A stretch of DNA of 64,000 nucleotides, taken from the NCBI RefSeq assembly GCF_001514065.1, contig NZ_KQ948426.1, positions 186,001-250,000 on the forward strand, given 5' to 3'. The notes below the pieces were generated by a model. The model was not told where the DNA came from, searched no databases, and was given only the letters and a program-made list of their open reading frames with translations. This DNA is from Streptomyces antibioticus (GTDB lineage: Bacteria > Actinomycetota > Actinomycetes > Streptomycetales > Streptomycetaceae). Each line of letters begins with the position of its first letter. The stretch's first letter is position 1. Shown here piece after piece: positions 55,450 through 57,763 of the stretch. A program made the position numbers and the translations under genes.

Positions 55450-57342
55450 ATGGCCGGGAACGGGGGACGGAAGCCCTATCTCGTCGTCAAGGCACCGGGT
55501 CACCTCGCGGGAACCCGCTGGGAGTTGATCCGGGATGCCCATGTCCTGGGGCGGTACGGCGACATCCGCCTCGCCTCCCCCGACGTCAGCAAACGCCACG
55601 CCGAACTACGCCTCGGCAGCGACGGGGTCTGGCTGAACGACCTGCACTCCAGCAACGGCGTCCTGCACAACGGGGTGCGGCTCGCGCCGGACCGGCCGGT
55701 GCGGCTGGCCGAGGGGGACCTCCTCCAATTCGGGTCCGTGCAGCTCGTGTTCCACCGCAACGGCTACGGCGTCACCGACCTGCGCGCCCACCAGCGCCGC
55801 CGCGCCACCGACCCGGATCTGCCGACCGGCCCGCTGCATCACGCGGATCCTCCGCCGGTCGACGACGACGCCCGCTCGTCGTCCACCCGCTGGCTGGCCG
55901 CCGCCACCCAACTCGACCCGTGGTTCGCCGACGTGGTCGTGCAGCAGGTCGTGAACGAGCCCTACCGCGCGCTCGCGCCCGTGTTCGGCGCGGACCTCGG
56001 GGTCGTCACACGGTGGGCGCTGGCGGCACGCAGGCGCCGGCTCGCCCGGGACCTCGTCCTCCTCGCCCTGCTGCTCTGCGTGATCGCGCTCATCGGGATC
56101 GGCGTCCGCGCCCACGCGGGGGAGTTCGGATCCGACCAGCCGCGGATCGACTGGCAGCGGTACGCCCTCGGCGCCCTGCCCGCCCTGCTCCTCGGCTGGC
56201 TGGCCGTGGCCGTCGACATCTGGGTGACCGAACATCTGGTGCTGCGCCGAAGACTGACCGCGCACCGCTACCAACCCGCCCAGGCCCCCGACCCGTTGAG
56301 CTCCCGCGCCCGCGCACGCCTCACCGCCGTGGCCGAGCGGCCCGCCGGCAATCTGATCGTCTGCTCCCACTACTCCCCCTTCGCGGGCAGCGGTTTCCAG
56401 GTCGACGAGTGGGACATGCCGATCGACATCCGCAAGGGCACCGCCCGCCCGGAAGGCGGCCGCCGCGCGCCCCAGCCGTTCGCCACCGGCGAGTTGTACG
56501 ACGTTCTTGTCGCCGCGGCCCGTGGCATCGGCCTGAACAACCTGCGCGTGGAGGAGCGCCTCTTCGTCGACGGACTGAACGTCGCCCTGGACCGCAGGCT
56601 GCTGCCGGTCCGCGACCAGCCGCCGCTCACCCGGGTCGACTCGCACGTCATGCGCGCCATGCCGGACGGCCTCGGCGCGACCCGGCGCTCCTATGTGAGC
56701 ATCGAGATCCCCGCCTGGAGCGGGCAGTTGGTGGTCACGATGTACCTGCGGGCGGTGCAGGTGCACGGCACGCTGTACCTGGAGTGGTCGGCGTACGCCC
56801 TGCTGCCGATGCTCCCGGAGTACTACGCGGTCGACCGCCTCCCCCACCGCACGGCCGCGGGATCCGCCGTACGCGCCGGGGCGCGGGCGCTGGCACGGCT
56901 GCTGCCCGCGCTGCTGGGCGCACCGAGGGCGCTGGCACGGCGCGCCTCCTCCGCCCGCGCGGCGGTCGCCCACCGGCGCCGGCAGCGGCGGCTCATCCGG
57001 GGCGGCTACCAGTTCGACTACGGCGCCCAGTACAGCATCCGGGAGTTCGCGTGCGGTGGGGACGAGGGCACGTACTTCCTCGGCAGGGACCTCAGCCGCG
57101 CCCTTGCCACGACACAGCAGCACCTGCTGAACACGGTCGGCGACTTCCTGGAGTCCCGCGGCATCGACTCGGAGAGCTTCCAGCGGCTCCAGCAGAACGT
57201 CATCCAGAACTTCACCACGAACAACGACTACAGCGTCAAGGCCAAGCACATCAGCGGCGGCGCGATCGCCCCCGGTGGCAGGGCGAACGCCAGTGGCGGA
57301 GGGGGCGGGCAGCGTGCCGCCTCAAGTGCCCCGCGGGGCTGA
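55450..57342 (+). CDS. FHA-domain two-helix membrane protein
   Basis: A 630-aa protein. Residues about 25-100 are an FHA phosphothreonine-binding domain (HVLGRYGDIRLASPDVSKRHAEL, SSNGVLHNGVRL: conserved Gly-Arg, Ser-x-x-His and Asn-Gly). Two membrane helices follow near 199-220 and 236-262. A large cytoplasmic domain has the block HYSPFAGSGFQVDEWDMPID (306-325), which I recall in other actinobacterial membrane proteins of unknown role. The C-terminus carries NDYSVKAKHISGGAIAPGGR (from 593), matched in the next gene. ATG 55450 has GGGGG nine bases upstream; ATG 55441 is also in frame. The small partner gene follows after 34 bases. Function unknown. Confidence 0.82.
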   Translation: MAGNGGRKPYLVVKAPGHLAGTRWELIRDAHVLGRYGDIRLASPDVSKRHAELRLGSDGVWLNDLHSSNGVLHNGVRLAPDRPVRLAEGDLLQFGSVQLVFHRNGYGVTDLRAHQRRRATDPDLPTGPLHHADPPPVDDDARSSSTRWLAAATQLDPWFADVVVQQVVNEPYRALAPVFGADLGVVTRWALAARRRRLARDLVLLALLLCVIALIGIGVRAHAGEFGSDQPRIDWQRYALGALPALLLGWLAVAVDIWVTEHLVLRRRLTAHRYQPAQAPDPLSSRARARLTAVAERPAGNLIVCSHYSPFAGSGFQVDEWDMPIDIRKGTARPEGGRRAPQPFATGELYDVLVAAARGIGLNNLRVEERLFVDGLNVALDRRLLPVRDQPPLTRVDSHVMRAMPDGLGATRRSYVSIEIPAWSGQLVVTMYLRAVQVHGTLYLEWSAYALLPMLPEYYAVDRLPHRTAAGSAVRAGARALARLLPALLGAPRALARRASSARAAVAHRRRQRRLIRGGYQFDYGAQYSIREFACGGDEGTYFLGRDLSRALATTQQHLLNTVGDFLESRGIDSESFQRLQQNVIQNFTTNNDYSVKAKHISGGAIAPGGRANASGGGGGQRAASSAPRG

Positions 57343-57376
57343 CCACCAACAGTGACTCGCTGCGAGGAGAAGGCAC

Positions 57377-57763
57377 ATGAGGCACCGTGACGACTACACC
57401 CACAACCCCGGCTTCAACGACTACAGCGTCAGTACCGGCGGCGGCGACATCACCGGCGGCGCCATCGCTCCCGGCGGCACGGCGAACTACAACGCGGCCC
57501 CCGTCTCGCCCGACACCCTCGAACTCCAGCAGCGTCTCGACGAGCTGCGGCGGCTGCTCGCGCGGTACTCCGCAGCCCTCCCCAACTCCGGCCAACTGCT
57601 GGACGACACCGAGCAGTTGGATGCCCAGCTGCAACGGGAACGGCCCAATCGGACCGTTGTGCAGGGACTGCTCGACTCGCTGACGGCGGGAGCGGGCGGC
57701 GTCGGCGCCCTCTCCTCCGCCGTCAGCGCGGTCGTCCAGCTCGTCAGCCGTTTCCTGCCCTGA
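57377..57763 (+). CDS. Small partner protein with NDYSV/GGAIAPGG motif (128 aa)
   Basis: It begins MRHRDDYTHNPGFNDYSVST and continues GGGDITGGAIAPGGTANYN, matching the C-terminal motif of the upstream FHA protein. The rest is helical: TLELQQRLDELRRLLARYSAAL, LDDTEQLDAQLQRERPNRTVVQGLLDSL, then a hydrophobic end (GGVGALSSAVSAVVQLVSRFL). This layout recalls DUF5955-type and effector-associated helical domains of bacterial conflict systems, but the link is unproven. GGAG lies eight bases before ATG 57377. Its end overlaps the convergent kynureninase gene by 20 bases. It is probably co-transcribed with the FHA gene. Confidence 0.8.
   Translation: MRHRDDYTHNPGFNDYSVSTGGGDITGGAIAPGGTANYNAAPVSPDTLELQQRLDELRRLLARYSAALPNSGQLLDDTEQLDAQLQRERPNRTVVQGLLDSLTAGAGGVGALSSAVSAVVQLVSRFLP

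Follow-up and report, generated by a model that had tools for sequence, protein, structure and literature searches.

Why should two adjacent and otherwise unrelated genes of Streptomyces antibioticus carry the same short sequence, at the C-terminus of one product and at the N-terminus of the other? The question is raised by an operon in a stretch of 64,000 nucleotides (RefSeq assembly GCF_001514065.1, contig NZ_KQ948426.1, positions 186,001 to 250,000), the whole of which is called the window in the following. The upstream gene is referred to as A and the downstream gene as B (Table 1). An element of the form NDYSV…I(S/T)GGAIAPGG(R/T)AN makes up the C-terminal end of A and the N-terminal opening of B: the tail of A holds NDYSVKAKHISGGAIAPGGRAN, and B holds NDYSVSTGGGDITGGAIAPGGTAN near its start. 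The reading that we favour, with a probability of roughly 0.6, is that A and B form a receptor/effector pair that would be coupled by a homotypic, self-templating motif of the amyloid type.

Table 1. Features of the A-B gene pair (positions within the window)
Feature	Position	Strand	Basis
A, putative receptor, FHA / two-TM membrane protein, 630 aa	55450..57342	+	ORF, Pfam
FHA domain of A, residues 33-95, expected phosphothreonine reader	55546..55734	+	PF00498, E 1.8e-14
Hydrophobic segments of A, residues ~199-219 and ~239-259, likely TM hairpin	56044..56226	+	Kyte-Doolittle windows; predicted topology
Core of A, ~residues 271-588, conserved, without Pfam family	56260..57213	+	alignment; 51-member scan
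Pairing motif of A, C-terminal: NDYSV-KAKH-ISGGAIAPGGRAN	57223..57288	+	sequence
AGGAG, likely ribosome-binding site of B	57365..57369	+	sequence
B, putative effector, 128 aa	57377..57763	+	ORF, Pfam
Pairing motif of B, N-terminal: NDYSV-STGGGD-ITGGAIAPGGTAN	57416..57487	+	sequence
B residues 45-128, DUF5955-like, probably helical, hydrophobic C-terminus	57509..57760	+	PF19380; sequence

The likeness between the two ends, which an earlier note on this DNA had pointed out, was confirmed: 16 of the 18 aligned residues are identical (3 of these 16 use a different codon) and the tail of A aligns to the start of B with a Smith-Waterman score of 69. The codon pattern for GG-x-IA-x-GG matches 9 times in the 10.1 Mb of the genome (reversed control pattern: 3) and only 2 of these 9 matches translate to GGAIAPGG, both of them in the operon of the window. 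The FHA domain and the two hydrophobic segments that had been described for A were recovered as well. The FHA domain scores 54.3 bits with respect to a curated cut-off of 20.7 and its best solved relatives are FHA proteins, e.g. TB39.8 and GarA. The same note had described the module as one not named in known families, which needs correcting for B, of which residues 45-126 exceed the curated cut-off of PF19380 (DUF5955, a family of unknown function; 31.0 vs 27.1 bits). A comparison with solved structures yielded no credible match for the core of A (best E 0.37) and, at the top of the list for B, only helical and largely designed proteins (best E 0.0017). The Pfam scan of window B recovered neither the CAP12-PCTIR TIR domain (PF10137) nor another recognised enzyme domain, PADLOC gave no match for A and only weak ones for B (best E 0.015), and a search for phage relatives of B gave no match. 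Plasmid relatives of window A amounted to five records, two of them actinobacterial and partial (60% and 53% covered) and the remaining three from Acinetobacter and matching in the FHA domain only; those of one A protein with a TIR-type partner were two Streptomyces records that were covered for 10-11%. The two reading frames are separated by 34 bp, and the pair is flanked by a TetR-type gene on the 5' side and by a convergent kynureninase-type gene on the 3' side (names assigned by eye).

The nearest named relatives of window A are found within Streptomyces. Close relatives occur in 32 of 246 genomes of the genus, the source genome counted (protein search, E ≤ 1e-30), and profile matches (E ≤ 1e-15) in 61 of 101 genomes of the family, some with a motif-less type only, and in 14 of 396 genomes of the phylum, three of which lie outside the family. 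Together with two named contigs, the genus, family and phylum searches provided 117 distinct A-type loci. The downstream gene was picked by codon usage alone, blind to the motif, and 107 loci yielded one. After removal of ten loci of the motif-less type and of five without an accepted downstream ORF (L058, L060, L064, L089 and L115, of which L089 and L115 match by eye), 102 pairs remained. The motif-less group (L004, L068, L072-L076, L138, L139, L141) was set apart by reading the C-termini, which are fixed and typically end in KADVYDA; a plausible B was found at none of its ten loci, five of which had a spurious downstream ORF call. It is perhaps the ancestral or housekeeping form. The A-B pair is a two-gene operon common in the Streptomycetaceae, and the co-occurrence of the two genes that had been supposed was borne out by the recurrence of the 102 pairs throughout the family. 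The source genome itself has a second A-B pair, L002, whose motif differs from that of the window pair.

To quantify the likeness, the tail of A (70 aa) was compared with the start of B (75 aa). The median score was 69.5 for the true pairs and 29 for all others, and 96 of the 102 true pairs, close relatives included, reached p ≤ 0.01 with respect to 300 shuffles of B. The six failures comprise four cases where B is mis-called or missing (L062, L071, L137, L140) and two weak ones (L082, L097). The four were dropped and the other 98 pairs were thinned to less than 60% core identity, which resulted in 50 non-redundant pairs. Their score sum of 3728 compares to a permutation mean of 1696 (sd 83; z 24.4), the highest permuted sum among 20,000 permutations being 2133; the cognate B ranked first in 30 of the 50 and within the best five in 45 (AUC 0.97). 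With the four dropped pairs restored, z was 24.7 and the AUC 0.91. As controls, the tail of A versus the last 70 aa of B was slightly positive (z 2.3) and an internal stretch of A versus the start of B gave z -1.0. The motif thus varies widely between pairs and matches within pairs, and we hold the pairing specificity of the A and B motifs to be very probable.

The literal NDYSV…GGAIAPGG sequence, which the earlier note had expected to see in homologues of both proteins, was found among the first 45 loci in the window copies (L001, L040) and in S. justiciae (L008) only; elsewhere its place is taken by a replacement motif that is again matched. Literal conservation was rejected as a yardstick in favour of pair-wise matching, and since the replacement matches in both genes the pair-specific motifs constitute the stronger evidence. 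The co-occurrence of the genes and the matching within pairs lend strong support to the claim that the motif serves both proteins in interaction or assembly and unites them in one module for membrane signalling. In composition the motifs are enriched in G and N and contain little leucine and charge, with the motif of genome G244, rich in charge and histidine, as an exception. The tetrad pattern of RHIM, PP and BASS3 motifs is I/V-Q-I/V-G-like; a RHIM-like tetrad was present in both partners in none of the 50 pairs and in either partner in one. A joint clustering of the tails was uninformative, as the compared segments took in constant parts.

The domains around the motif turned out to be exchangeable. 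Within the 51 scanned A proteins (the window protein and 50 non-redundant ones; E ≤ 0.001) an FHA domain is found in three, and none of the five Pfam families matched is an NTPase family. In a tree of 77 A cores (< 80% identity) the four rows with FHA constitute one clade and the four TIR-linked rows a separate clade, both with support of 100/100. The FHA domain, confined to one clade, was accordingly rejected as a defining part of the system. At 6 of the 102 loci it is a CAP12-PCTIR TIR domain that follows the motif in B: PF10137 was matched by all four such B proteins that were scanned (L101, L128, L131, L132; E 5.3e-26 to 6.2e-29), and L130 and L133 were added by sequence likeness. DUF5955 was matched by 25 of 61 scanned B proteins (a set selected by us, TIR types excluded). 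Strong matches to this family number about 50, or roughly one in each genome, and none of them coincides with an A match; each of the 14 weak matches (E 6.5e-12 to 5.7e-5) has an A match next to it (both by eye). DUF5955 was rejected as the mark of the system because its strong matches never occur at A loci. The one strong match that was read, L039:1483-1773, is a DUF5955 gene away from A and is motif-less. Near one TIR-type pair lies a gene for a 950-aa protein (L153:10541-13393) with weak nSTAND and TPR matches and GGHNIQIGDVTGD near its start, which we take to resemble a RHIM/BASS3-like motif.

Identical terminal ends that are G/N-rich and private to each pair, and a death-type effector that can be exchanged, together make up the anatomy of an amyloid signalosome. 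In the favoured receptor-effector reading, A would form a membrane hairpin with the FHA domain and the motif in the cytoplasm, and a phosphothreonine protein bound by the FHA domain would cause the motif to be clustered or freed; in other clades a kinase or a bitopic membrane protein encoded nearby may provide the input. The motif of A would then template the matching motif of B, and the C-terminal domains of B would be gathered, the helical domain acting on the membrane and the TIR domain, where present, on NAD+. As an end result the hyphal compartment would become dormant or die. The diversity of the motifs would keep parallel channels separate, as for the two pairs of the source genome. Of the separate parts, the direction from receptor A to effector B is likely, and the amyloid nature of the motif is somewhat less certain though still probable, as is cell death or dormancy as the outcome. 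The absence of a partner gene in the motif-less A clade is in line with a coupling of A and B. Against the amyloid reading it counts that the range of motifs, as far as can be read from the sequences, exceeds any one amyloid signature, and the receptor-effector model leaves the FHA domain and its ligand unexplained.

The most serious alternative is that the motifs build a static heterodimer, or a small beta-sheet dock, that tethers B to the membrane without any polymer. The data reveal pairing specificity and not polymerisation, and certain motifs are charged or aromatic, which would suit a dock; the partners, however, carry the same and not a complementary sequence, as in-register self-stacking predicts, the motifs resemble signalling amyloids in composition, and one clade employs TIR effectors, a class that is generally activated by oligomerisation. 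We therefore consider a static dock unlikely. Less likely still is that A acts as an inhibitor that retains a toxic B at the membrane until a signal sets it free, in the manner of a toxin-antitoxin or guard pair. The tight organisation of the operon, with A before B and a gap of -11 to 87 bp in the 50 pairs, would fit such a role, as would the lack of a recognised enzyme domain in window B and the TIR domain that takes its place in one clade. Identical matched motifs are nevertheless typical of activating signalosomes, and the persistence of motif-less A at ten loci where a plausible B is lacking argues for a role of A of its own.

The genomic neighbourhood was inspected for further components. 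Within the clade adjoining the FHA clade (support 92/88), 13 A loci have a Ser/Thr kinase gene in the stretch that was fetched (our own count, after removal of refetched stretches and one unrelated match), and at L149:9855-14594, the only locus of this kind that was scanned, genes for a kinase, a PP2C, a vWA and a DO-GTPase2 protein are convergent with the A-B pair. In other clades the gene of an NTF2-like (by eye) bitopic membrane protein lies nearby at 19 distinct A loci and that of a second bitopic type, PsbP-like where Pfam matched (L155), at about 17; both numbers are our own tally of tblastn matches, with positions checked in 20 neighbourhoods. In the gene calls between 40 and 64 kb of the window, read by eye, we noticed no Ser/Thr kinase gene, and no PP2C, vWA or DO-GTPase2 gene beside the pair. 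Co-occurrence with FHA, kinase and TIR genes, which the note had proposed to check, was seen in parts of the collection: FHA in one clade, kinases at the 13 loci and TIR at the six. Of the proposed role in signalling or defence the former is supported, and defence is suggested indirectly, by the TIR swap and by the kinase/PP2C/vWA/DO-GTPase neighbourhood in the clade next to that of the window.

The specificity can be seen to change at one chromosomal place, which is occupied by the pair in the window, S. justiciae, Streptomyces sp. S.PB5 (L009) and G244 (L010, L143). Hydrolase-, lipase- and acyltransferase-type genes on the side of A are common to all four and the kynureninase-type gene on the side of B to three, S.PB5 being without it (names by eye); a TetR-type gene was not called in G244. 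With respect to the window, the core of A is 70% identical in S.PB5 and 73% in G244, and the C-terminal part of B 61% and 54%, compared to 34% and 25% for the tail of A and 28% and 34% for the start of B. Motif scores within the genomes are 69 (window), 69 (S.PB5) and 108 (G244), and between the three they range from 17 to 34. By these alignments both motif-bearing ends, that of A and that of B, have been replaced together at a shared place, and one short exchange could swap both motifs, as the two copies lie on either side of the gene junction. That both motifs are docking sites of a common third partner is highly improbable: a recurrent third gene does exist in several clades, yet none common to all loci was found and none is part of the window operon, and such a partner would have to switch specificity together with both motifs every time, as at this shared place.

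The likeness of the motifs could finally be a neutral remnant of a local duplication or gene conversion, the copies in the window being just 127 bp apart over the gene junction, an explanation we consider negligible because the matching holds over 50 diverged pairs and the residues match with a codon identity near expectation (492 of 779 shared motif residues, or 63%, have the same codon vs 58% expected from codon usage). The same codon figures indicate that the likeness is old and has been kept at the protein level. The motifs do track phylogeny, with Mantel correlations of 0.76 (tail of A vs core) and 0.72 (start vs end of B); the motif distances of A and B correlate with 0.70 and those of core and B domain with 0.67 (50 pairs), and after removal of core and B-domain distances a modest partial Mantel r of 0.25 (p 5e-4) is left.

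Similar pairs were recovered with other receptors. Among 14 places, chosen from a longer list of B-like genes away from A matches, the tails of three beta-helix and three DUF6232 proteins matched the start of the adjacent B-like protein, each with p 0.001, the floor of 1000 shuffles. The right-handed beta-helix proteins (L225:4352-6522, L226:2479-4601, L227:4353-6687) have a C-terminal motif that includes PVF and QLAW; the DUF6232 proteins (L230:4289-5109, L234:4039-4860, L235:3743-4551) are small, with a motif such as GDRINQYGDHNIG. L222, L223 and L228 turned out to be further A-type pairs, absent from the list of the profile search and in the case of L222 recognised from the tail alone, and at L224 two adjacent genes are alike start-to-start (p 0.002). 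No clear receptor match was obtained at L229 and L231-L233. Directly 5' of the B-like gene at L229 lies a gene for a second, unrelated FHA/two-TM protein (L229:3650-4961), not convincing as a matched pair (p 0.04), and at L231:4020-4938 and L232:261-1401 the B-like domain ends longer proteins whose front looks like a winged-helix DNA-binding domain (by eye). We tentatively propose, at slightly less than even odds, that Streptomyces and its kin possess an NLR-independent, prion-like network in which unrelated receptors (FHA/two-TM core proteins, beta-helix and DUF6232 proteins) would be connected to interchangeable death effectors (DUF5955-like helical and TIR) by private, co-diversifying amyloid motifs.

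The closest known systems are the BASS pairs (Dyrka et al. 2020), for which passages of PMC7889193, PMC9815663, PMC12261475 and PMC8086366 describe NLR-Bell, NLR-TIR and NLR-CHAT combinations. According to the same passages, published amyloid signalosomes have facing terminal motifs in neighbouring genes (PMC7889193, PMC9815663), and in the bacterial cases the motif opens the NLR and closes the Bell effector (PMC7889193). The A-B pairs share with BASS, so described, a terminal motif of ~20-40 aa common to the products of two adjacent genes, the many sequence families, the occurrence in filamentous actinobacteria and TIR as an alternative effector. They differ in three respects: i) the pair lacks an NLR, no NTPase family having been found in A; ii) the polarity is mirrored, the first gene encoding a membrane protein with a C-terminal motif and the second an effector with an N-terminal one; and iii) the B domain is DUF5955-like, and the TIR-type B also carries its motif in front. 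Of the features that define BASS, the same short motif in two adjacent genes was found, and an NLR partner (NACHT/NB-ARC/STAND) with an N-terminal motif and a Bell, TIR or CHAT effector with a C-terminal motif were not. As two defining features are lacking, we regard the A-B pair as a paired-motif (amyloid-type) variant and not as a member of BASS.

In the fungal HET-S/NWD2 and HELLP/PNT1 systems and in the mammalian RHIM system (RIPK1/RIPK3) a matched motif likewise joins a receptor to a death effector, and the fungal partners are encoded by adjacent genes (passages of PMC7889193); unlike in these systems, the Pfam scan places A neither with the NLRs nor with the kinases, and in none of the 50 pairs do both partners have the RHIM-like tetrad. 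The CAP12/Pycsar PCTIR effectors share the TIR domain with B at six loci (four scanned), whereas here this domain is situated behind a matching motif and paired with a membrane receptor. The GTPase-centric/vWA conflict systems (Kaur et al. 2020, PMC7159879, in passages) resemble the kinase, PP2C, vWA and DO-GTPase2 genes of L149; the A-B pair is absent from those passages, and no such genes were noticed among the neighbours of the window pair. FhaB/FipA, OdhI, GarA and TB39.8 are alike in the FHA sequence, far under the whole-protein cut-offs, and unrelated to the rest of A. Our literature search found no paper on DUF5955 or DUF6232 and none that combines an FHA domain, an amyloid motif and Streptomyces; the titles and abstract openings searched contained no NLR-free bacterial motif pair, bioRxiv being outside this scope, so that an earlier mention is possible.

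Passages of PMC7889193 put NLR-independent bacterial signalling amyloids forward as an open question, and it is on this printed question that the A-B pairs bear. They provide a large test set of receptor-effector pairs in which no NTPase was detected and among which the specificity has switched naturally at a shared place. If true, the favoured reading would give a first role to the DUF5955-like proteins and to an unnamed family of membrane proteins that is present in 61 of the 101 genomes of the family.
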